A stretch of DNA of 64,000 bases from Affinibrenneria salicis (lineage in GTDB: Bacteria; Pseudomonadota; Gammaproteobacteria; Enterobacterales; Enterobacteriaceae): positions 310,001-374,000 of the forward strand of contig NZ_VYKJ01000001.1 in the NCBI RefSeq assembly GCF_008710095.1. The letters are read 5' to 3'. Each line of letters begins with the position of its first letter. Position 1 is the first letter of the stretch. The translations under genes were made by a program, and so were the position numbers. The notes below the pieces were generated by a model. That model was given only the letters and a program-made list of their open reading frames with translations, was not told where the DNA came from and did not search any database. This document shows positions 47,463 through 64,000 of the stretch, piece by piece.

Positions 47463-47549
47463 TGGTGCGAAGAGAGGGACTTGAACCCTCACGCCCGTTA
47501 AGGCACTAACACCTGAAGCTAGCGCGTCTACCAATTCCGCCACCTTCGC
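47463..47549 (-). tRNA. leuV: tRNA-Leu (anticodon CAG)
   Basis: An 87-base gene on the minus strand starting GCGAAGGTGGCGGAATTGG and ending in an encoded CCA. The anticodon loop reads TTCAGGT (CAG), and there is a long variable arm as in all leucine tRNAs. Third and last of a tandem trio; identical to the first copy. Confidence 0.97.
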
Positions 47550-47579
47550 ACAGGGTATGAATAATTTGTATCACCAGCG

Positions 47580-47666
47580 TGGTGCGAAGAGAGGGACTTG
47601 AACCCTCACGTCCGTTAAGACACTAACACCTGAAGCTAGCGCGTCTACCAATTCCGCCACCTTCGC
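47580..47666 (-). tRNA. leuP: tRNA-Leu (anticodon CAG)
   Basis: 87 bases, same structure as its neighbours with encoded CCA. It differs only in the variable arm, where one C-G pair is replaced by T-A on both sides of the stem, so pairing is kept. Confidence 0.97.
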
Positions 47667-47698
47667 AGTATGCCGTGCGATACAAATAATGTGGTTGT

Positions 47699-47785
47699 TG
47701 GTGCGAAGAGAGGGACTTGAACCCTCACGCCCGTTAAGGCACTAACACCTGAAGCTAGCGCGTCTACCAATTCCGCCACCTTCGC
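47699..47785 (-). tRNA. leuQ: tRNA-Leu (anticodon CAG)
   Basis: 87 bases with encoded CCA, first of the trio in the direction of transcription. The strong promoter upstream serves all three, which are spaced by 30 and 32 bases. Confidence 0.97.
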
Positions 47786-52533: not shown

Positions 52534-53940
52534 ATGAATATTACCGCTAGCGCGCCGTCAGCTCAGCCGCGCACGTCCAACGTCAGGCTCACCTTTTTCG
52601 TCTGTTTTCTCGCCGCGTTAGCCGGCCTGCTGTTTGGTCTGGATATCGGGGTGATCGCCGGCGCGCTGCCGTTTATTACCGCGTCCTTTAACATCACCAC
52701 TTCGCAGCAGGAGTGGGTCGTCAGCGCCATGATGTTCGGCGCGGCGGTGGGCGCCGTCGGCAGCGGCTGGATGAATTTCCGTCTGGGCCGGAAATACAGC
52801 CTGATGGTCGGCGCGATTTTATTCGTGGCCGGCTCTCTGCTTTCGGCGTGTTCCGCCAATGTGGAGATGCTGATTGCCTCCCGCGTCATTCTCGGTCTGG
52901 CCGTCGGGATCGCCTCCTACACCGCGCCGATCTATCTGTCTGAAATTGCGCCGGAAAACATTCGAGGCAGCATGATCTCGATGTATCAGCTGATGATTAC
53001 CATCGGCATTCTGGCCGCCTATCTGTCCGATACCGCGCTCAGCTACAGCGGCGCGTGGCGCTGGATGCTGGGCGTCATCACTCTGCCGGCCGCGCTGTTG
53101 CTGATCGGCGTATTCTTCCTGCCGGACAGCCCGCGCTGGCTGGCGTCGCGCAACCGTCATGAACAGGCGCGTCAGGTACTGGAAAAACTGCGCGACACCA
53201 GCGAACAGGCGCACCGCGAGCTTGATGAAATCCGGGAAAGTCTGAAACTGAAGCAGAGCGGCTGGGCGCTGTTCAAAAATAACGGCAACTTCCGCCGCGC
53301 GGTGTTCCTCGGCATTCTGCTGCAGGTGATGCAGCAGTTCACCGGCATGAACGTCATCATGTACTACGCGCCGAAAATCTTCGGCCTGGCGGGCTTCGCC
53401 AGCACCGAACAACAGATGTGGGGCACCGTAATCGTCGGGCTGGTCAACGTGATGGCCACCTTTATCGCCATCGGTCTGGTCGACCGCTGGGGCCGTAAAC
53501 CGACGCTGATTCTCGGCTTCGTGGTGATGGCGGCCGGCATGGGTATCCTGGGCACCATGCTGAATAGCGGCATCAGCACGGAGGCCGGGCAGTACATGGC
53601 GATCATTATGCTGATGCTGTTCATCATCGGTTTCGCCATGAGCGCCGGCCCGCTGATTTGGGTGCTGTGCTCGGAGATCCAGCCGCTGAAAGGGCGCGAT
53701 TTCGGCATCACCTGCTCCACCGCCACCAACTGGATCGCCAACATGATCGTCGGCGCCACCTTTCTCACCATGCTGAATTCGCTCGGCAGCGCCCACACCT
53801 TCTGGGTCTATGCGGCGCTGAACCTGCTGTTCGTCTTTATCACGCTGGCGCTGATCCCGGAAACCAAAAACGTCTCGCTGGAGCACATCGAACGGAATCT
53901 GATGTCTGGCAAGGCGCTGCGCAACATCGGCGCCCGCTAA
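52534..53940 (+). CDS. galP: Galactose:proton symporter GalP
   Basis: The 468-residue sugar porter has 12 hydrophobic segments and is very close to E. coli GalP over its whole length, including [20 protein letters not shown], the PDSPRW motif after helix 6, [17 protein letters not shown] in helix 7 and [16 protein letters not shown] at the C-terminus. AraE is a less similar alternative. In E. coli galP lies elsewhere (near metK). Confidence 0.9.
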
Positions 53941-54056: not shown

Positions 54057-55679
54057 TCAAAACCCCACGGCCTGCCCGTCCCGTCGGCTGTCACTGGCGG
54101 CGACATAGCCGTGATTGAGGTCGTCTGACAGTCGCCAGATAAATTGCCCTGCACCAAAGTCCATGTAAGGGTCGTCAACGCTTTTTAGTTGATGGCCGCG
54201 GGATTGCAGTTGCTGCACGACCGCCGGGTCAAAACGGCTTTCCAGATCAAGGGTAAAATCCCGGTTAACTTTCCAGCGAGGGGCGTCGCAGGCAGCCTGC
54301 GGCTGCTGATGAAAATCCAGCATTCTGACGAGGGTTTGCACATGCCCCTGGGGTTGCATATCGCCCCCCATGACGCCAAAGCTCATCTGCGGCTGTCCAT
54401 TTCTGGTAAGGAAAGCCGGAATAATGGTGTGGAAGGGACGTTTGCCCGGCGCTACCACATTGGCGGATTTTGGATCACTGGAAAATCCCGCTCCCCGGTT
54501 TTGCAGGCTGATGCCATACTCCGGCACCACCACGCCCGAACCAAAGCCCATATAGTTGGACTGAATAAATGACACCATCATGCCATTTTCATCGGCGGTG
54601 GTCAGATAAACGGTGCCGCCGCTGCGAGGTATTCCCGCCGCCGGCAGGCTGGCGCGCGTCAGGTCGATTTGCGCGGCGCGCTGCTGCAGGTAGTTATTGT
54701 CCAGCATCTGCTGCGGCGTGATTTCCATCGACGCCGGATCAGCCACGTAGCGGTACACATCGGCGAAGGCCAGTTTCATCGCTTCGATTTGCAGATGCTG
54801 GACATCCACGCCATCCAGCGCCAGGCCGGCGAGGTCAAACCGCTCCAGAATCCCCAGGGCAATCAGCGCCGCAATGCCCTGCCCGTTAGGGGGAATTTCA
54901 TGGACCTCATAACCGCGATAGCGCTGGCTTATCGGCGTTACCCATTCAGGCTGATATGCCTGTAAATCCTGTAAGGTCAGGCTGCCGCCGGTCTGCTGCG
55001 ACCAGTTCACGATGGATTCGGCAATCTCGCCTTCATAAAACGCGCGCGCGCCCTGGTCGGCCAACAGACGCAGGGTTTTCGCGGCGGCCGGGAAACGAAA
55101 TAACTCGCCGGTTTGCGGCGCCCGTCCGCCAGGCATAAAGGCATCGGCAAAGCCGGGTTGTTGCGCAAGAATCGGTACGGCGGCCTGCCATTTCCGCGCC
55201 ACCATCGGCGCCAGTGCGACGCCGCGCTCTGCGATCCCGATGGCGCTGTGCATCAGACGGGAAAAGGGCAGTTTACCAAAACGGCGATGCAGCGCTTCCC
55301 AACCGGCCACCGCGCCAGGCACGGTAACGGCATCCCAGCCGCGTTCCGGGCGTTTCGCCAGTCCCTGCGCATCGTTGCCGTAGCGACGACGAAAATAATT
55401 CACATCCCAGGCGCCCGGCGCAGGGCCGGACGCATTCAGCCCGTGCAGTTGTCCACCGGCCCAGACCAGCGCAAAGGCATCGCTTCCCAGTCCGTTTGAT
55501 ACCGGCTCCACCACCGTCAGCGTGGCGGCGGCGGCGATAGCGGCATCCACCGCGTTGCCGCCTTCCAGTAAGATGCGGTTGCCCGCCTGAGCCGCCAGCG
55601 GATGCGAAGTGGAGACGATGTTATGGGCGAACACCGGCGTGCGCGGCGTAAGATACGGGTTATGCCAGTTAAAGCTCAT
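54057..55679 (-). CDS. Gamma-glutamyltransferase-family acylase, cytoplasmic
   Basis: The 540-residue Ntn-hydrolase precursor has the GGT fold signatures AGNRILLEGGNAVDAAIAA (about 32-50) and the autocleavage site before Thr356 in RSGGTVYLTTADENGMMVSF, which would be the nucleophile. There is no signal peptide, unlike periplasmic Ggt, so it resembles YwrD-type acylases. It is the last gene of a nine-gene operon and overlaps the ligase by 4 bases. It may release an acid from an amide or gamma-glutamyl conjugate. Confidence 0.88.
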   Translation of the reverse strand: MSFNWHNPYLTPRTPVFAHNIVSTSHPLAAQAGNRILLEGGNAVDAAIAAAATLTVVEPVSNGLGSDAFALVWAGGQLHGLNASGPAPGAWDVNYFRRRYGNDAQGLAKRPERGWDAVTVPGAVAGWEALHRRFGKLPFSRLMHSAIGIAERGVALAPMVARKWQAAVPILAQQPGFADAFMPGGRAPQTGELFRFPAAAKTLRLLADQGARAFYEGEIAESIVNWSQQTGGSLTLQDLQAYQPEWVTPISQRYRGYEVHEIPPNGQGIAALIALGILERFDLAGLALDGVDVQHLQIEAMKLAFADVYRYVADPASMEITPQQMLDNNYLQQRAAQIDLTRASLPAAGIPRSGGTVYLTTADENGMMVSFIQSNYMGFGSGVVVPEYGISLQNRGAGFSSDPKSANVVAPGKRPFHTIIPAFLTRNGQPQMSFGVMGGDMQPQGHVQTLVRMLDFHQQPQAACDAPRWKVNRDFTLDLESRFDPAVVQQLQSRGHQLKSVDDPYMDFGAGQFIWRLSDDLNHGYVAASDSRRDGQAVGF

Positions 55680-57199
55680 GGTCTTTCCCCTTGTTGTACA
55701 CGTTGTTCTGCCGATATCTGTAAGGCCCGGCGATCCACTTTATTGGTGCCCGCCAGCGGGAAGTGGTCGGTAAGCCAGATATGGCGTGGATGTAAATAAG
55801 CCGGCCCCTGTTGCAGCGCCCAGTTTTTCAGCGCCTGTGGGTCGAGGGACTCTCCGGCGCGGGGGATCACCCAGGCGACGGGTTTCTGGCCTTTGATGTC
55901 ATCCGCGACCGGCACGACACAGGCCTGCTGAACCTGCGGGTGGCTTTCCAGCAGCTTTTCGACCTCACCCGGCCAGATATTTTCTCCGCCGCAGACGAAC
56001 ATATCGTCATGGCGGCCGATGAACCAGAAGAACCCTTGTTCGTCGCGGCGAAACACGTCGCCGGTAATGTAGTAACCGTCATCAGTAAAGGGCGCGGGAA
56101 CATCCGGTCGCTGGTGATAGCCATGCATTAACGCCGGACTTTTCATCTCCAGCACGCCTTCATCCGCCAGCGCACCGTCAGCGCCGCGCAGCCGCACGCT
56201 GACGGCGGGATGGGGATAGCCGGGCGAACCGGCCGGCGTGGTCAGCCCTTGCGGGTGCGGCGCAAAGACCACCGGCCCGGCTTCTGTGGTGCCATAGGCG
56301 TTAATGATGCGCGCCTGCGGCAGCCAGCGGCGTAATGACCGATACAGGCTGTCACTCACCGGCGCTGATCCCATACGAATCACCCGCACGCAGGAGAGAT
56401 CGCTTTCCGCCAGCAGATCTTTTTCCTGCAGCATCATGGCCAGCATCGGCGGCACGGCGGTGAGCCAGCTACAGCGGTAGTGGTTCACCGCCTGGAGATA
56501 AGCGCGTGCGGCGAATTGCGGCAGCAATACGGTGGTCACCTGACTTGCCAGCGTCAACAGCGCCAGCGCCAGCGCGTTCATATGGTAGAAAGGCGCGGCG
56601 ATGAGCACCCGTTCGCCCGTCAGTTCCCGGGTGGACAGGCGAGTCGCCACCACCCAGCGGTGGCTGGCATGGGTCAGACGCACGCCTTTGGGCATCCCGG
56701 TGGAACCAGAGGTGTAGAGCATCAGCGCCAGGTCATCGGCCCCCGGAGCAAAACAGATCGCTTCCCCTTGCCGCTGCAGCGCGTCCAGCTCCGCGCCAAA
56801 ACTTAGCCGGGGAAGGTCACCGCTGATACGGGTAAGCTGATCCTCATCGCCCAGCAGCAGTCGGCTGCCGCTGTCCGCCAGAATGCGTTCAATCGTGTGC
56901 GTCGGGAAACGAAAGTTGATCGGCACCGCCACCAGACCGGCACGCATAATGCCCAGCAGGCTGGCAATATAGTCAATCGAGTTACGCGCTAAGATCGCCA
57001 CGCGCGTCCCGCCAGACCAGCCGAATTGCCGCAGGCCGAGGCAAATGGCGTCAGCCTGGTGATTTAATTGCCGAAAGGTGATTTCCTTCTGTGCGCCATC
57101 GGCCAGCGGGGTGATAAAGGCCGTCTGGTCACTGTGACGCAGGGCGGCGCTGAAGGCGCCGAGGTTGTCAGGTAAAGTTAATGACCGGGTATCAGGCAT
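55676..57199 (-). CDS. AMP-binding acyl-CoA ligase
   Basis: The 507-residue enzyme activates a carboxylic acid through an acyl-adenylate and transfers it to CoA. Seen: P-loop YTSGSTGMPKGV (162-173), the NAYGTTEAG motif, DGYYITGDVF and the C-terminal catalytic Lys487 in PLAGTNKVDRRA. The acid substrate is unknown. It overlaps the VOC gene by 8 bases and the GGT gene by 4, so translation is coupled. Confidence 0.9.
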   Translation of the reverse strand: MPDTRSLTLPDNLGAFSAALRHSDQTAFITPLADGAQKEITFRQLNHQADAICLGLRQFGWSGGTRVAILARNSIDYIASLLGIMRAGLVAVPINFRFPTHTIERILADSGSRLLLGDEDQLTRISGDLPRLSFGAELDALQRQGEAICFAPGADDLALMLYTSGSTGMPKGVRLTHASHRWVVATRLSTRELTGERVLIAAPFYHMNALALALLTLASQVTTVLLPQFAARAYLQAVNHYRCSWLTAVPPMLAMMLQEKDLLAESDLSCVRVIRMGSAPVSDSLYRSLRRWLPQARIINAYGTTEAGPVVFAPHPQGLTTPAGSPGYPHPAVSVRLRGADGALADEGVLEMKSPALMHGYHQRPDVPAPFTDDGYYITGDVFRRDEQGFFWFIGRHDDMFVCGGENIWPGEVEKLLESHPQVQQACVVPVADDIKGQKPVAWVIPRAGESLDPQALKNWALQQGPAYLHPRHIWLTDHFPLAGTNKVDRRALQISAEQRVQQGERP

Positions 57200-57962
57200 C
57201 GTTAAACTCCAGCACCAGCGCCAATGCGGGGATAGCCACGCGCAGGTATCCGTCTTGTTGTTTCAGCGGTAAATGAAACCGCTCTGCCGCGGCGACGACA
57301 GAGACGGTGTCGCCGCCGCCAATACGGATACAGGCAAACCGACTTTCGCGATCATCTGCAAGTGGCAATAAATCGCCGTATTGCGCCTGCCATTGCGCAA
57401 GGCTAACCACCTGTAGCAACGCCGTGTCGCCCAGTCGCGCATACTGTTTACCGGTTTCATCCGCATCACGCGCCACCACGGTTAACGCCTGAATACAGCC
57501 AGGCTGCAGCCACTCGTCACGCCACACCCATTGCGGCGTATGATGCTGACAGAAGTACACCCGGCCGGCGCTGAAGCTGCCCGGCGCCAGGCGCACGGTA
57601 CTGAAACGGGCTTCGCCTTTTTCTCCGCCGCTGTTCACCTCGCGAGAGAAGCGCTGCACCGGCTGTACGCTAAACCCCGCGGTACGCAGGGTGGTTGCCG
57701 TAGATTCCGCGTTGTCGCTGGCAAACACCAGTCCGTCAATACCCGGCGGGTTAGCCAACAGTTCCCGACGTAAAGGCTCGCCCCGTTCTGGCAGGCCAAT
57801 CAGCTCCAGGTAGTGGTCAGCGAACATGATCAAATGGTTGATCGAGCCGAGGCTGTGATAACCCCTGGGCGTTAACACGAACCCCAGCGCCCGAAACAGT
57901 TGCGCGCTGTTATCCAGTTCAAAGTGGCTGTTGATCACCAGATGATCCAGTTTCAGGATCAT
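57192..57962 (-). CDS. VOC / glyoxalase-like domain protein
   Basis: The 256-residue product begins MILKLDHLVINSHFELDNSAQLF and contains LELIGLPERGEPLRRE, as in the Glyoxalase_3-type vicinal oxygen chelate family. His7 and Glu54 are plausible metal ligands. Function unknown; members isomerise, hydrolyse or oxygenate small molecules. Tightly packed between a thioesterase and the ligase. Confidence 0.8.
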   Translation of the reverse strand: MILKLDHLVINSHFELDNSAQLFRALGFVLTPRGYHSLGSINHLIMFADHYLELIGLPERGEPLRRELLANPPGIDGLVFASDNAESTATTLRTAGFSVQPVQRFSREVNSGGEKGEARFSTVRLAPGSFSAGRVYFCQHHTPQWVWRDEWLQPGCIQALTVVARDADETGKQYARLGDTALLQVVSLAQWQAQYGDLLPLADDRESRFACIRIGGGDTVSVVAAAERFHLPLKQQDGYLRVAIPALALVLEFNDA

Positions 57963-58369
57963 GCCGCCCCCTGTTCCGCCGGAGTCGCGTACAGGCCACG
58001 TCCGCTGGCCACCAGACGCCCTTCGGCGTCATAGATCCAGGCCTCGGCGCTGGAGGCCAGTTTGCCGCGTTTAATCACTTTCGCTTTAACCGTCAGATCG
58101 CCGCGCGCCGGGCGGTGGTAATCCACATGCAGGTTCAGGGTGGGCACCCCCCTGCCGGTCCAGGCGACCAGCGCCCAGTCTGCGGCCAGATCAATCAGCG
58201 TAGCGAGAATACCGCCGTGGATATAGCCGCCTGCCGGGTTAACCACGAATTCATCCCGAAAGGGCACCTGCAGGGTAATTTCGCCTTCGCCGGCCTGCCC
58301 GACTTTCAGCCCCAGCCACTGGTGATAGGGGCCTTTAAGCAGTTTTTGTTCGATGTCCTGTGCGTTCAT
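57959..58369 (-). CDS. PaaI-type hotdog thioesterase
   Basis: The 136-residue product has the PaaI-like pattern NPAGGYIHGGILATLIDLAADWAL (about 44-67), with the catalytic Asp at the start of the hotdog helix, and LNLHVDYHRPARGDL. It should hydrolyse acyl-CoA thioesters, possibly those made by the operon's ligase. Start overlaps nothing upstream (14 bases to the reductase gene) but its stop overlaps the VOC start. Confidence 0.88.
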   Translation of the reverse strand: MNAQDIEQKLLKGPYHQWLGLKVGQAGEGEITLQVPFRDEFVVNPAGGYIHGGILATLIDLAADWALVAWTGRGVPTLNLHVDYHRPARGDLTVKAKVIKRGKLASSAEAWIYDAEGRLVASGRGLYATPAEQGAA

Positions 58370-58383
58370 TTCTTGCTCCTGAA

Positions 58384-59388
58384 TCAGGGGGTGACGATCA
58401 CTTTGCCCAGCACTTCACGGTCACGAATCAGCCGTAACCCTTCTGCCGCCTGTTCCAGCGGCAGCACCCGGTCGATCAGCGGCGTGATTTGTCCTGCGGC
58501 GACCATATCCAGCAGTACCGCCAGGTTATCCTGGTAAAAACTGTTGGATCCTTTGATGTTCAGCTCAAAACTCCAGACGTAACGCAAATCTTCCTGCGGG
58601 TCATAACCGGCGGTGGCGCCGCACACTAGCAGAGTGCCGCCACGCTTCAGACATTTCAGCGACGGGCGCCACGTGTCTCCGCCCGTAAAGTTGATCACGA
58701 CATCCACACCGCCGTCATAGGTCCGGCGCTGGGGTTTGCCGTATTTGTCAATCGCCCAGCGAGAGAAGTCCTGCCGGCGGTAATTGACCACGTGGTCGGC
58801 CCCTATCGCCTGGAGCGCCGCCGCTTTTTCGTCACTGCCTGCGCAGGCAACCACTTCCGCGCCGAGGTGCTTCGCCAGCACCACGCATGCGGTGCCGACG
58901 CCCCCACTGGCGCCGAGGATCAGCACCTTGTCGCCAGCCTTAATGGTGTTATGGGTGATTAACATGCGGTGAGCGGTGCCGTAAGCCACCGGCAGCGCGG
59001 CAGCCTGCTCAAACGTCACGCCATCCGGCACAGCAATAAGCTGGCGCGCGTCCGCCAGCGCATATTCCGCCATGCCGCCGTCGGTCATTTCCCCCATCAG
59101 ACCGACACCCGGTTTCAGTGGGTTAACCAGCACCCGGTCGCCGATATTCCAGCCCGTCACGCCTTCGCCAATTCTGTCGATGGTACCAGCCAGATCCAGC
59201 CCCGGCACTACCGGCAGAGGAACTTTGATGCCCGGCATTCCCTGTACGGTGAAGACATCGTGATAGTTAAACGAGGATGCCCGGACGCGCACCACCACAT
59301 GCCCGGCCTGCGTCTGAGGCATGGCTTTGTTTTCATCAATCTGTAACTGCTCAAGGTCACCATGTTGTAGTAATACCAGCGCTTTCAT
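58384..59388 (-). CDS. Medium-chain dehydrogenase/reductase (quinone/enoyl reductase type)
   Basis: The 334-residue product has the NADPH Rossmann motif LILGASGGVGTACVVLA (about 157-173). Neither the structural-zinc cysteine cluster nor the catalytic cysteine of alcohol dehydrogenases is present (SFNYHDVF replaces it), so it is of the zinc-free quinone oxidoreductase or enoyl reductase type. It lies 16 bases after the binding-protein gene. Confidence 0.87.
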   Translation of the reverse strand: MKALVLLQHGDLEQLQIDENKAMPQTQAGHVVVRVRASSFNYHDVFTVQGMPGIKVPLPVVPGLDLAGTIDRIGEGVTGWNIGDRVLVNPLKPGVGLMGEMTDGGMAEYALADARQLIAVPDGVTFEQAAALPVAYGTAHRMLITHNTIKAGDKVLILGASGGVGTACVVLAKHLGAEVVACAGSDEKAAALQAIGADHVVNYRRQDFSRWAIDKYGKPQRRTYDGGVDVVINFTGGDTWRPSLKCLKRGGTLLVCGATAGYDPQEDLRYVWSFELNIKGSNSFYQDNLAVLLDMVAAGQITPLIDRVLPLEQAAEGLRLIRDREVLGKVIVTP

Positions 59389-59404
59389 CGTGTTGCTCTC
59401 CGGG

Positions 59405-60382
59405 TTATTTCAGTTCTTTCGCGGCAAGATAAGGGCGCGGGTCGAACAGGTCATCATTCAGCCCGCCTTTGATGGAACCGCTGCTTAACAGCACTGCGTG
59501 TTCACGTTTTAGGGTGTCGATATCGGCTTTTTCAAAGGACATCTGGTTCATGCGATCCCACAGGCTGACGTAGGCTCGCGCCTGGTCTTCCGGCAGGCTG
59601 GCCTTCGTCTGGAGGATCTTTACCACTTCATCCGGGTTGGCCCGGCCCCAGTCGAGGGTATCGCGCAGGGCGGCGATGACTTTAGCGACGGTTTCCGGCT
59701 GTTGGGTGATCAGTTCATTGCGCACGGTGCCGACACCGATATAAGGCAGAGCGTCACTGTGCGTCAGTTTTTTCCACTCATCGGCAAAGGTGCTGATAAC
59801 GCGCAATTTCAGCTCCGGCAACTGTCTGACCGTCAGAGTACGCAGGGCGGCGGCATCAATCTGATTCTGCGCGAGGAACTGCGCCAGGCGCGATTCGTTC
59901 CCGCCGATCAGAGAAAATTCATTCGCGGCAATGCCGGCGTTTTCCTGCAACAGCGTGCTACCAATTACCGCTACGGAAGAGCCCGCCGGCGACATGCCCA
60001 CTTTTTTACCTTTCAGTTGTGACAGTTCAGTAATGGGAGAACCTTCCGGCACGACGAACGCCACATCGGCGGGCTGGGTGGCGGCGAAGATTTTTACCGG
60101 CACCCCTTCGGCAGCTACACTGAACACACCCGCCACCGGTGCGCCAAAGGCCAGATCAATGGAGCCGGATGCCAGCGCTTTCAGCGGTGCATTCACATCC
60201 GGGAAGTGGACGAACTCGGCATCGACGCCGCGTTTTTTCAGGAAATCCTGACTTTCCAGCACCGCGCCGTATCCCAGGCTGACGCCGGACGTCCAGTAAC
60301 CGATACGCACTTTGCCGTCGGCAAAGCTGAATGGCGGCAGCAGCCCCGCCAGCAAGGTGAAAAGAACAAGCAGTTTTTTCAT
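59405..60382 (-). CDS. ABC transporter periplasmic substrate-binding protein (SsuA/TauA/NMT1-like)
   Basis: The 325-residue protein has a signal peptide (MKKLLVLFTLLAGLLPPFSFA) and the NMT1/SsuA-type fold: RIGYWTSG at the start, then LKGKKVGMSPAGSSVAVIG. This family delivers sulfonates, taurine, nitrate or pyrimidine-like compounds; the ligand here is not predictable. It is encoded with its permease and ATPase. Confidence 0.9.
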   Translation of the reverse strand: MKKLLVLFTLLAGLLPPFSFADGKVRIGYWTSGVSLGYGAVLESQDFLKKRGVDAEFVHFPDVNAPLKALASGSIDLAFGAPVAGVFSVAAEGVPVKIFAATQPADVAFVVPEGSPITELSQLKGKKVGMSPAGSSVAVIGSTLLQENAGIAANEFSLIGGNESRLAQFLAQNQIDAAALRTLTVRQLPELKLRVISTFADEWKKLTHSDALPYIGVGTVRNELITQQPETVAKVIAALRDTLDWGRANPDEVVKILQTKASLPEDQARAYVSLWDRMNQMSFEKADIDTLKREHAVLLSSGSIKGGLNDDLFDPRPYLAAKELK

Positions 60383-60406
60383 GTATTACCCCTGAATGAA
60401 TAAGCG

Positions 60407-61174
60407 TTATGCACGTTTTTTCCAGCGAAACAGGCGACGTTCCAGCGGTTTGAGCAGACCGCCTTCCAGCAGCAACATCAGTGAGACGAGCAACAAGGTC
60501 CAGGCAAATACCTGACTGGTCTGCACCAGATCACCCGCCTGGCGCAGGCGATAGCCAATGCCATCGGATGATCCCAGCGTTTCCGCCACCAGCGACACTC
60601 GCCAGCCGAAGCCAAAGGCCAGGCGAGCACCAGAAAAGAAGTACGGCAGAATGGTGGGTAAATAGATTTTGCGCAGCGTCTGCCAGCGGTTCATACGGAA
60701 GCTGCGTGCCAGTTCGACATACTGCGCGTCCACGTTTTGCGCGCCCTGCCAGACATTGGTGAGGATCAGCGGCATCGCCGTCATAAACACGACGAAGATG
60801 GTGGTGGCATCAGAAATGCCGAACCAGATAATGGCGAAGATGGCCCAGATTGCCGACGATACGGTGTTAAACACCGCCAGCAGCGGTTCAAAAAAAAGCG
60901 CCACCCGCTGGCTGGCGCCCAGCGCCAGACCGAACAGGGTGCCGACCAACGCCGCCAGCACGAAGCCCGATACCACGCGGCTGAACGTGGCGCCGATGTC
61001 GTGCAGCAGCGATTCACTCTGCCACAGCACCAGCAGCGCCTGCCAGGTGGCGGCCGGGCCGGGCAAGACAAATGCCGGAAGATGTTGTGAACCCTGCCAC
61101 CAGGCAATCAGAAACACGGCCAGCAGGATCAGCCGTTGTAATAACAGGTTAAAGGTGCGTGAAAGGTGTTTCAT
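60407..61174 (-). CDS. ABC transporter permease (SsuC/TauC type)
   Basis: The 255-residue protein has about six hydrophobic segments and the BPD_transp_1 EAA-loop region (SFRMNRWQTLRKIYLPTILPYFFSG, about 157-181). The start at 61174 is one base after the ATPase stop; an upstream extension overlaps that gene. Confidence 0.9.
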   Translation of the reverse strand: MKHLSRTFNLLLQRLILLAVFLIAWWQGSQHLPAFVLPGPAATWQALLVLWQSESLLHDIGATFSRVVSGFVLAALVGTLFGLALGASQRVALFFEPLLAVFNTVSSAIWAIFAIIWFGISDATTIFVVFMTAMPLILTNVWQGAQNVDAQYVELARSFRMNRWQTLRKIYLPTILPYFFSGARLAFGFGWRVSLVAETLGSSDGIGYRLRQAGDLVQTSQVFAWTLLLVSLMLLLEGGLLKPLERRLFRWKKRA

Positions 61175-61175
61175 C

Positions 61176-61910
61176 TCATACCTCAAGACGTAACAGGCGA
61201 ATCTGTTCATTCACCTCAGGAGCCGTGGCGATGCGTGGGCGCGGCAGGTTCAGCGCGGTTTGCCGGTGGATGCGTCCCGGATGGGGTTTCAGCACCACGA
61301 CCCGATCCGCCAGCACCACCGCCTCTTCCACATCGTGCGTCACCAGCAATACGGTCATCCCCGTCAGCTGCTGAATACGCAGCAACTCGTCGTGCATGGC
61401 GCTGCGGGTTTGCGGATCGAGGCGTGAGAAGGGTTCATCCATCAACAGGATTTGTGGCTGCACCACCAGGCTGCGAGCCAGCGCCACGCGACTGCGCATC
61501 CCGCCGGATAACTGATGCGGCCAGTGCCGGACGAAGTCGGACAGGCCGACCAGCGCCAGAGCGTCGTCCACGCGCTGGCGACGCTCCCGTTTAGCGAGGG
61601 CGCTGTTTTCCAGGCCAAAGTGTACGTTTTGCCCAACGGTACGCCACGGCAGCAGGCGATCTTCCTGAAACAGGTAGGCGATACGCTGCCAGTGCTGAAA
61701 GTGTTTTGCCGGCGTTCCCTGAATGGCAATGTCGCCGTTGTCTGCCGGTAACAGGCCGGAAATCAGATTTAACAACGTGCTTTTACCGCCCCCGGATGCG
61801 CCCAGCAGCGCCACGATTTCCCCTTGCTGAATGGTCAGAGAAATATTTGTCAGCACGTTTTGGTTGGCAAAGGATTTACTGACGTCACGCAATTCAATGG
61901 CCACGCTCAT
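61176..61910 (-). CDS. ABC transporter ATP-binding protein (SsuB/TauB type)
   Basis: The 244-residue ATPase has Walker A GASGGGKST (about 37-45), the Q-loop in LFQEDRLLPWRTV, signature LSGGMRSRVALARSL, Walker B ILLMDEPFSRLD and the H-loop VTHDVEEAV. The LLPWRTV segment is characteristic of the nitrate/taurine/sulfonate transporter subfamily. Its start overlaps the GntR stop by 4 bases. Confidence 0.93.
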   Translation of the reverse strand: MSVAIELRDVSKSFANQNVLTNISLTIQQGEIVALLGASGGGKSTLLNLISGLLPADNGDIAIQGTPAKHFQHWQRIAYLFQEDRLLPWRTVGQNVHFGLENSALAKRERRQRVDDALALVGLSDFVRHWPHQLSGGMRSRVALARSLVVQPQILLMDEPFSRLDPQTRSAMHDELLRIQQLTGMTVLLVTHDVEEAVVLADRVVVLKPHPGRIHRQTALNLPRPRIATAPEVNEQIRLLRLEV

Positions 61911-62605
61911 TCAAATATCTCCCGTGGCAATACCGGTAATAACGTGCCTTCTTTACTCAGGGTGGCGTAGATTTTTTCCAGCGTCATTGTCTGAAACGTT
62001 TCAATATGGCGGCGGGCAATAAACTCCACCCGTTTCGCATCCCCTTCAATAAATGCGTCAATCATGGCGTTATGATCGTGTTTAATTTCAGGTTTAATAC
62101 GTTGCACGTTAAATCCCAGCGCCACCAGTCGCGCCATTTCATCCATTAATCCGGACAGCGTGCGAATTAAATGGCCGTTACCGGTGGCTTCGGCAATGGT
62201 TAAATGGAAACGTTTATTGGCATTCATAAACACATCAATGCGCGTAGACAGCGGGGCCGCGACTTCCACCCGGCACTGGGCTTCTAAATCTTTCAACAGT
62301 TCAATATCCACTTTGCCGACCGCCAGGCGCGCCGCCAGCGGCTCCAGTGCGGCGCGCAGGGTAAAGATTTCCTCCACGTCCTGCACCGTCACCGGCGCGA
62401 TGCGATAGCCCTTGCGTGGGCGTGAAATCACCAGTTTGTCATGACTCAGGCGCGTCAGCGCCAGCCGGATGGTGCTTTTCCCGGACTGGTAGCGATCCAT
62501 CAGTTCAGATTCCGTCACCAGCGATCCCGGCAGCAGGCGGCAGGTCAGAATATCGCGGCGAATGGTGTAGTAAGCCTGGTTGCTTAAAGATAAAGAATCG
62601 CTCAC
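61907..62605 (-). CDS. GntR-family transcriptional regulator (FCD domain)
   Basis: The 232-residue protein has an N-terminal winged helix (YQSGKSTIRLALTRLSHDKLVISRPRKGYRI, about 39-69) and an FCD domain with histidines in NKRFHLTIAEATGNG and KHDHNAMIDAF. As first gene of the operon it is probably autoregulated and controls the whole set. FCD regulators usually bind a pathway acid. Confidence 0.92.
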   Translation of the reverse strand: MSDSLSLSNQAYYTIRRDILTCRLLPGSLVTESELMDRYQSGKSTIRLALTRLSHDKLVISRPRKGYRIAPVTVQDVEEIFTLRAALEPLAARLAVGKVDIELLKDLEAQCRVEVAAPLSTRIDVFMNANKRFHLTIAEATGNGHLIRTLSGLMDEMARLVALGFNVQRIKPEIKHDHNAMIDAFIEGDAKRVEFIARRHIETFQTMTLEKIYATLSKEGTLLPVLPREIFE

Positions 62606-62719
62606 GCCAGCCCTCTCAGTTTATTTCTGTGAGCAGCTCACTGCGTCACATTGAATATCCCAATAAGGTCATTCTGAAACAGTGCCGGAAAGCGATCTAA
62701 TAATAAAATCAGCAATGCA

Positions 62720-62735: not shown

Positions 62736-62803
62736 GTACTGAGCTGCCCAGAAAAGAATGGGAATATTTGCGCATTTAAATAGCCGAAATACTTATGCGC
62801 TAA

Positions 62804-62920
62804 ATCATTCGAGTTGCAGGAGACGGCAAGAGAGAGAATCCCGAATCACTGGCTCAAGTCAGTGATTCGGGTGAGCGAGCGTAGCCAACGCACCCGCAAC
62901 CGGAAGTATGACAAGTAGAT
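62804..62920. repeat. ERIC-like intergenic repeat
   Basis: The core GAATCCCGAATCACTG...CAGTGATTCGGGTGAGCG corresponds to the ERIC core around the ERIC1R/ERIC2 primer sites, followed by GCCAACGCACCCGC. A perfect 12-bp hairpin (62840-62851 with 62860-62871) forms its centre. The left end is ATTCGAGTTGCAGGA, also found at 51096. Confidence 0.75.
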
Positions 62921-63241
62921 AACCAGCGAGAAAGCGCGGTATCAATATGCTGCCTTTGGATGTGTCTGACGCGGGTTTACTATACAGGCATATAAGGAAA
63001 CGCCGACGCAGCAAATAGACGGAGAACGGCAACGTTAAACCGGCATCAGGGTACAACCGGGCTTTAGAGGTCGATATTAGCCATCTGTTTTCGGCTGACG
63101 GTAAGGCATAGACGACATAATAAGTCTGAGCATCCCACTTCATCCAGGATATGCACATTATTAGATAAAGTTATTCGTTCTGGTTTCATCACGCCTGCTT
63201 TACCCTAGCGGAAAATTTTCTTTATCGACCTGGGAGTATGT

Positions 63242-64000
63242 ATGCGTCTGAAGTTGTTGTTATTGTCCCTCATGTTGGCCGGAGTTTCCCAGGCTCAGGC
63301 GCTGGATGACGTGACGGTTGCGCTGGCGATTCCCCCGGCCGTGCACGATGGCGCGCCTTATGCGGCGGCGCAGGAACTGGGGTTATTTAAACAACAGAAC
63401 CTGTCCGTCAAACTGGTGGTGTTTCAGGGGGCCGGGGCGCTGCTGCCTCAGGTCGCCAGTAAACGAGTCACCTTTGGCTACCCGGTATCGGAACCGGTTA
63501 TTTCCAGCTACTTTAGCGGTAAAGATCCCCTGCCGCTGCGCTATTTTTACAATGGCACGCCGGCCCAGACCATGGAATACACCGTACTGGCGGATTCTCC
63601 GATCAAAACGCTGGCAGATCTGAAAGATAAAAAAATCGGGGTCGGCGCCCTGACATGGGGAACCATCCCGAACAGTCGCGCCGCGCTGCGTGTTGCCGGT
63701 CTGGAACCGGGTAAGAACGTGGAATTTGTCGCGGTGGGCGTGCTGGGATCGGGCTTCCAGGCGCTGCGCAGTAAACAGATCGATGCCCTGAACTATAACA
63801 GTAGCTGGGGCGATATTTTTGAGCTCACCGGCACCAAAATTCGCCGCATCGCTTACCCGGACGTATTTCAGGAAACCCCGGGCAACGGGTTTATCGCCCA
63901 TGAGGATACGTTCAAAGACAACCCGGATCTGATCCGCCGTTTTGGCCGTGCGTATACTGAAGCGCAATACGTTTGTGAAGTGAACCCCGAATTTTGCGTG
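63242..64000 (+). CDS. ABC transporter substrate-binding protein (NMT1/SsuA-like), partial
   Basis: The first 253 codons lie in the window and the gene continues beyond it. The product starts MRLKLLLLSLMLAGVSQAQA, a signal peptide, followed by DDVTVALAIPPAVHDGAPYAAAQELGLF and LKDKKIGVGALTWGT, typical of NMT1/TauA-type binding proteins. It is clearly different from the binding protein at 59405. Divergent from the GntR operon, it probably starts a second ABC importer operon. Confidence 0.88.
   Translation, partial: MRLKLLLLSLMLAGVSQAQALDDVTVALAIPPAVHDGAPYAAAQELGLFKQQNLSVKLVVFQGAGALLPQVASKRVTFGYPVSEPVISSYFSGKDPLPLRYFYNGTPAQTMEYTVLADSPIKTLADLKDKKIGVGALTWGTIPNSRAALRVAGLEPGKNVEFVAVGVLGSGFQALRSKQIDALNYNSSWGDIFELTGTKIRRIAYPDVFQETPGNGFIAHEDTFKDNPDLIRRFGRAYTEAQYVCEVNPEFCV

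Follow-up and report, generated by a model that had tools for sequence, protein, structure and literature searches.

What does the nine-gene operon near one end of this stretch of the Affinibrenneria salicis genome do, and where does the system to which it belongs stop? The window, by which we mean the whole stretch of 64,000 nucleotides analysed here, carries the operon on its minus strand at 54057-62605, and the initial annotation had read it as an import and coenzyme A (CoA) ester operon. Our reading is that it belongs to a catabolic cassette that has spread horizontally, comprises two co-regulated operons and may import and degrade an amide-linked acid; this is a tentative proposal, whose chances we would put a little short of even. 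A single odd operon has thereby become a defined, testable regulon, in which the enzyme core is fixed, an operator can be proposed, a second operon takes part and natural variants exchange one step for another. The substrate can be approached from several independent directions, and a function might be assigned to this PF13468 family of VOC proteins.

The nine-gene operon and its conservation

All nine open reading frames are present head to tail, as the initial annotation stated, and run from 62605 down to 54057 in the order REG-ATP-PERM-SBP-MDR-THIO-VOC-LIG-GGT (operon 1):

61907-62605, minus strand: REG, GntR/FCD regulator, first gene of operon 1, GTG start (PF00392 and PF07729)
61176-61910, minus strand: ATP, ABC importer ATPase (PF00005, ABC_tran)
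60407-61210, minus strand: PERM, permease of the ABC importer, with another possible start at 61174 (PF00528, BPD_transp_1)
59405-60382, minus strand: SBP, NMT1/SsuA-fold substrate-binding protein (NMT1 family match)
58384-59388, minus strand: MDR, zinc-free medium-chain reductase (PF08240/PF00107)
57959-58369, minus strand: THIO, hotdog (PaaI-like) thioesterase (TIGR00369, above cut-off)
57192-57962, minus strand: VOC protein (PF13468)
55676-57199, minus strand: LIG, class I adenylate-forming acyl-CoA ligase (PF00501 and PF13193)
54057-55679, minus strand: GGT, GGT-family Ntn amide hydrolase with catalytic Thr356 (PF01019; TIGR00066 narrowly passed)

The spacing is as tight as had been described: neighbouring genes either overlap, by 4, 4, 8 and 4 bases, or are separated by 24, 16 and 14 bases. 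Several starts are possible for the permease: its longest reading frame overlaps the ATPase gene by 35 bases, and if it begins at 61174 a single base separates the two genes, in agreement with the initial annotation. Family scans agree with the gene families first proposed, apart from the labels PaaI and SsuABC.

Conservation was followed with the VOC protein as bait. It has 2518 relatives at E 0.001 or better, and it matched in 46 of 392 genomes of a family sample (E 1e-20), in 10 of 398 of a phylum sample (E 1e-30) and, at 1e-30, in one of 369 genomes of a class sample, namely the bait genome itself; further samples, which like these overlap in part, gave 14/58 at 1e-45 and 10/18, 6/60 and 18/100 at 1e-30. 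A first contig scan gave 20 candidate stretches, which came down to 2 loci. Around a selection of the matches 46 regions of 13 to 20 kb each were fetched (numbered L below, with genomes numbered G), and genes in them were called by tblastn (E 1e-8, 35% coverage), some of the calls in Dpp-type regions resting on 36-45% identity. MDR, THIO, VOC and LIG occur together in 40 of these regions; the full four-gene core is absent from six (L048, L050, L052, L053, L123 and L125). Since the eight-gene order from REG to LIG is kept in 28 of the 46 VOC-bait regions, the arrangement exceeds chance, and the cluster is a real co-inherited unit. All nine genes, with GGT directly after LIG, are found in 14 regions, and in another arrangement, seen in eight, an enzyme dependent on pyridoxal phosphate (PLP) stands between LIG and GGT.

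The named carriers span gamma-, beta- and alphaproteobacteria: Raoultella and Leclercia records, Caballeronia sp. SBC2 and two Methylobacterium plasmids, whose annotation gives the same eight genes in order. A copy on a Sodalis praecaptivus plasmid has an altered set in a different gene order. Regions L034-L053 are called enterobacterial here, since they come from the family to which G001 belongs; L064, L108-L115 and L119-L122 are probably alphaproteobacterial, by their likeness to the Methylobacterium set. The chromosomal settings differ as well (gene names by eye): the window copy is flanked by rimI-like and GalP-like genes, and relatives lie by recA/alaS-like genes (L037), between moa-like genes and uvrB (L047 and L049) or beside secretion genes (L034). 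Differing neighbours and plasmid copies indicate that the cassette moves horizontally. The window copy has no anomaly in GC content, and the DNA from the reductase to SBP found no match in an Escherichia coli collection by blastn at word size 11.

A second, divergent operon

The nine-gene span was correctly drawn, but the system extends beyond 62605 and includes a divergent operon, beginning at 63242, that had been missed. Two of its features lie in the window:

63242-64000, plus strand: SBP2, second binding protein of NMT1 type; it opens operon 2 and is truncated at the end of the window
63127-63186, plus strand: conserved promoter block of operon 2, opening with the weaker operator core TGAGCATCCCA

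The part of SBP2 within the window is 88% identical to SBP2 of region L002, where it is followed by HYD2 (a hydrolase with Bile_Hydr_Trans/BAAT_C domains), an ATPase and a permease; the nearest solved relatives of HYD2 are acyl-CoA thioesterases 4 and 2. The divergent four-gene operon adjoins operon 1 in seven of the 46 regions and also in L002. Operon 1 supplies a regulator, an importer and five cytoplasmic enzymes; operon 2 belongs to the cassette and, judging from its relatives, comprises a second importer and an ACOT/BAAT-type hydrolase. In L035 and L036 the 60 bases of the operon 2 promoter block are 93% identical; in L175, where the block precedes an unlinked operon 2, the identity is 81% across 59 bases.

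Some variation around this operon deserves mention. An apparent relic of the operon 2 promoter lies at L034:14141-14232 (Raoultella sp. BIGb0138), in a genome with no HYD2 match. The spacer between the two operons measures 636 bases in the window; in eight relatives the match ends are 274 to 399 bases apart. The extra stretch, 62752-63126, has no match among the compared loci and holds a 32-base hairpin at 62840-62871, which would fit the insertion of a small repeat element. Finally, a HYD2 homologue (48% identical) at L174:7310-9731 adjoins CMD-domain and Dpp genes, and may link HYD2 to that kind of cluster.

A predicted regulon

How might the two operons be held together? The palindrome TGTGAGNNGCTCACA stands upstream of REG, and two operator-like sites are found in the window:

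62628-62642: operator-like site 1, directly ahead of the REG start and differing from TGTGAGNNGCTCACA at one position
62739-62751: operator-like site 2, CTGGGCAGCTCAG on the minus strand, with a distance of 110 bases between the cores of the two sites

If up to two mismatches are allowed, 16 of 17 enterobacterial regions (the window and L002 included) have the palindrome no more than 400 bases from REG, a count that is descriptive, because the motif was derived from these same regions. So do 7 of 16 other regions, and shuffling gave a mean of 0.05 regions in either set; the upstream set includes one near-identical pair, L078 and L127. In 16 of the 17 enterobacterial regions a second, weaker copy stands another 110 to 113 bases away from REG. 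Independent support comes from a whole-genome scan and from two unlinked operon 2 promoters (L148 and L173). In 16 genomes the scan returned 50 strand matches with at most one mismatch, against 19 for the reversed control, and perfect copies fell in 10 places, nine of which are the operon 1 promoter. The tenth (G143:C11:16654) sits just upstream of an unlinked ATP2-PERM2-SBP2-HYD2 operon, and in G985 a perfect palindrome lies 58 bases from an unlinked SBP2-HYD2-ATP2-PERM2 operon. One site does not fit: the second site of G306 (one mismatch, in L149) has no matching gene of the system nearby, and integrase-like reading frames were seen by eye. No palindrome site lies beside the HYD2 homologue region of G1156 (L174), and upstream of SBP2 in L175 the promoter block is kept with no full palindrome within three mismatches.

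REG itself passes the cut-offs for both of its domains (GntR DNA-binding 49.8 against 27, FCD 83.1 against 24.3), and H134, H178 and H200 are invariant across 12 sequences, that of the window included. It thus resembles known FCD-type GntR regulons in its three conserved FCD histidines and in the palindrome before the regulator's own gene. We infer that the palindrome is the operator of REG. Because the palindrome recurs at both operons and the promoter block of operon 2 is kept in relatives, one regulator most likely controls the two, and REG is predicted, from sequence, to act on them through this site. The three exact spellings of the palindrome had no match in the literature searched.

The amide hydrolase

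The GGT homologue narrowly passes TIGR00066 (362.0 bits, cut-off 357.85). Its nearest solved relative is 2nlz, a "cephalosporin acylase", and the small chain of 5hft (5hft_B) begins at query residue 356. That residue, T356, is the predicted catalytic threonine and is invariant in nine sequences, the window's among them. The protein therefore shares with the gamma-glutamyltransferase family, of which HpxW is another relative, PF01019 and a catalytic threonine at the start of the small subunit. It differs in having no signal peptide that could be seen by eye, and in its substrate pocket. We take the gamma-glutamyl-binding residues of E. coli GGT to be Arg114, Asp433 and Ser462-Ser463; at these positions the alignment places Ser84, Ala397 or Gly398 (no Asp) and His417-Thr418. 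Their replacement weakens the gamma-glutamyl cleavage that had been proposed, which is probably wrong, and leaves gamma-glutamyl specificity unsupported.

A hydrolase of this general kind nevertheless travels with the core. Among the 40 core regions, 23 carry a relative of the window GGT, so that the co-occurrence of ligase, VOC and GGT genes suggested as a check in the initial annotation is largely borne out; two others carry a distant GGT homologue (L044 and L062), one an M20 and four a DUF2817 hydrolase. Amide or peptide hydrolases of three unrelated families (25 GGT-like, 1 M20 and 4 DUF2817) hence accompany 30 of the 40 cores: the amide hydrolase recurs with the core, yet it is exchangeable. 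Annotated zinc-dependent hydrolase genes also stand in the flanks of three plasmid copies, one from Sodalis praecaptivus and two from Methylobacterium. The GGT relative in G058 is 55% identical, a figure shared by a second, unlinked homologue in G001. G985 and G1156 each have a core copy with no linked GGT, and in both a GGT that is 69-70% identical adjoins Dpp-type importer genes:

L171:8438-15548 and L172:9101-16203: close GGT homologues (69-70%) beside Dpp-type ABC genes

Across the regions these genes suggest a recurring theme, a C-N bond next to an acid that is handled as a CoA ester. Genes for amino-acid enzymes fit this theme: nine of the 46 regions have a Cds1-like cysteine desulfhydrase, six an Asp/Glu racemase and one a Ser/Thr dehydratase.

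Importer, CoA enzymes and VOC protein

SBP scores 114.3 bits against the SsuA family TIGR01728, below the cut-off of 163.5, and the best NCBIfam match of ATP, the taurine ATPase model, is likewise below its cut-off. In fold SBP resembles SsuA bound to MOPS or MES, and PqqT, which binds pyrroloquinoline quinone (PQQ), is nearly as close. The label "SsuABC-type importer" holds for the fold and fails for the ligand, since the protein falls under the SsuA-family cut-off. Like the SsuABC, TauABC and PqqT-type importers, the operon 1 system has an NMT1-fold binding protein, one permease and one ATPase; it differs from SsuABC and TauABC in scoring below the SsuA and TauA family cut-offs and in having CoA enzymes, not desulfonating enzymes, as neighbours.

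LIG carries both adenylate-forming domains above cut-off, PF00501 at the N-terminus and PF13193 (AMP-binding_C) at the C-terminus. Its nearest solved structures are those of a feruloyl-CoA synthetase (8weu/8wev, 228 bits over residues 19-489). It differs from that system in staying below cut-off in each of the 25 best NCBIfam ligase models listed, and the hydratase/lyase gene of the feruloyl-CoA system has no counterpart in operon 1. MDR is indeed zinc-free, as had been claimed: the structural-zinc loop of 2eih aligns to a gap. Its top NCBIfam match is the PIG3 quinone-reductase group, below cut-off, and its solved relatives include alcohol dehydrogenases, a quinone oxidoreductase and crotonyl-CoA reductases. 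THIO fails the PaaI model TIGR02286 (24.0 bits, cut-off 118.9) and passes the general hotdog model TIGR00369 (78.6 bits, cut-off 36.6), so we call it PaaI-like: a hotdog thioesterase it is, as first proposed, but not PaaI itself. Its best solved relative is 3e29 (Bordetella Q7WE92). The VOC protein matches PF13468 (Glyoxalase_3) at 86.7 bits, over a gathering cut-off of 25.1; a sequence search found no solved relative, and secondary structure and conservation suggest that it is probably metal-dependent.

From these parts we can outline a possible pathway. The imported compound is probably an acid that an amide bond links to an amino acid or a similar amine, and either importer, of operon 1 or 2, could bring it in. 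The kinship of LIG to feruloyl-CoA synthetase, the crotonyl-CoA reductases among the solved relatives of MDR and a UbiD decarboxylase gene in 7 of the 46 regions suggest that the acid is unsaturated or aromatic. The GGT-family hydrolase would cut the amide, and LIG would make the CoA ester of the freed acid, on which MDR might saturate an alpha,beta-unsaturated bond. The VOC protein, probably with its metal, may rearrange or oxidise the acid before or after MDR acts. THIO would free the product and recycle CoA, and HYD2 may add a second thioester or amide cleavage. The FCD regulator would sense a carboxylate and bind the operators. Of the chemistry in the initial annotation the outline stands, namely import, a CoA-ester set and an amide hydrolase, inherited together; gamma-glutamyl cleavage probably does not. 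None of the titles and abstract openings searched describes this cluster, in keeping with the initial annotation, to which no such pathway was known. A more specific version, which we regard as possible though somewhat unlikely, is a mobile alpha-, beta- and gammaproteobacterial pathway that salvages unsaturated or aromatic acids conjugated to amino acids (cysteine conjugates in some lineages), with a new metal-dependent PF13468 VOC step on the acid or its CoA ester and one FCD regulator acting through TGTGAGNNGCTCACA on the two operons.

Weighing the explanations

The gene set, its conserved order, the palindrome at both operons and the second operon are observed; every chemical step, the order of the steps and the substrate we infer from them, and several facts weigh against an amide-degrading, co-regulated cassette. 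Ten of the 40 core regions lack a linked GGT-like, M20 or DUF2817 hydrolase, and the best relatives of the window GGT in G119 and G223 are just 37-38% identical; cleavage by the GGT homologue is on these grounds not indispensable. HYD2 was found in five of 11 genomes tested and not in the other six, G001 included. The palindrome, at up to two mismatches, is missing from one of the 17 enterobacterial upstream regions (L043) and from nine of the 16 others. The MDR family also holds quinone and alcohol dehydrogenases, we know of no chemistry for PF13468 proteins, and enzymes of the Dpp-type regions, just 36-60% identical to those of the window, may use other substrates.

The unlinked cores would be expected if the substrate were a free aromatic or alpha,beta-unsaturated acid, hydroxycinnamate-like, with the GGT homologue serving some conjugates or an unrelated nutrient. 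The kinship of LIG to feruloyl-CoA synthetase points the same way, as does the UbiD decarboxylase gene of 7 of the 46 regions (in L110 just 34% identical to the query), since UbiD enzymes take unsaturated or aromatic acids as substrates. An NMT1-type binding protein adjoins UbiD in L062, L116, L119, L120 and L121; in L119, L121 and L122 the UbiD gene is on the divergent side of REG, with the binding protein beside it in L119 and L121. We nonetheless think this explanation unlikely, given that three unrelated families of amide or peptide hydrolase recur with the core, and that, the unassigned VOC protein aside, the family scan of operon 1 found no family of ring cleavage or beta-oxidation. The presence of a GGT homologue would be explained if S-conjugates of glutathione or cysteine were broken down, with GGT removing gamma-glutamate, a cysteine lyase releasing sulfur and the acid passing through CoA. 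So would that of the Cds1-like cysteine desulfhydrase gene (PLP-dependent; 530 bits, cut-off 600) in nine of the 46 regions (L108, L110, L111, L112, L114, L115, L119, L121 and L122). That gene was found neither in the enterobacterial regions nor among the nine window genes, and with the altered residues of the GGT pocket this makes the idea quite improbable.

An amide-linked acid as nutrient must also be set against two readings of the importers and reductase. The compound might be a reactive enone or quinone-type acid to be disarmed, with CoA as a handle, MDR and the VOC protein removing the reactive group and THIO discarding the product. The PIG3 match of MDR, though below cut-off, fits this, as does the fact that VOC proteins include many detoxifying enzymes; two dedicated importers, on the other hand, suggest a compound that is wanted, not excluded, and we hold such a loop to be highly improbable. 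Sulfonate-sulfur scavenging like that of Ssu or Tau was considered for the sake of the NMT1 importer and the likeness of SBP to SsuA with MOPS or MES. It was set aside after the family scans, in which operon 1 showed neither a flavin monooxygenase or flavin reductase nor a TauD-like family; with SBP under the SsuA cut-off and PqqT nearly as close in fold, it seems scarcely credible. A link to the box (benzoyl-CoA) pathway, suggested by L066, was dropped, as boxB and boxC occur in no other compared region.

Related clusters and neighbouring sequence

A different kind of cluster shares with the cassette a related VOC protein, an amide hydrolase and an importer. In these clusters, of luciferase-like monooxygenase (LLM, KPN_01858), CMD (Avi_7169), M20, VOC and Dpp genes, the monooxygenase replaces ligase, reductase and thioesterase, and the importer is Dpp-type. 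An example lies at L050:2603-10303, with another in L053, comprising a VOC relative, a KPN_01858-type monooxygenase, an Avi_7169-type CMD protein, M20 and a Dpp importer.

No Rfam family matched between 50000 and 64000 at gathering score, and promoter and terminator consensus scans did no better than shuffles. Repetitive, tandem-looking stretches lie between THIO and MDR within the operon in two relatives (L041:8511-9140 and L045:8461-9682). In the window the GGT gene has as convergent neighbour, 116 bases away, a GalP-like sugar symporter gene (named by eye) at 52534-53940. Further off, at 47463-47785, three tRNA-Leu (CAG) genes stand in tandem near rsmC-, holD- and rimI-like genes, again named by eye.

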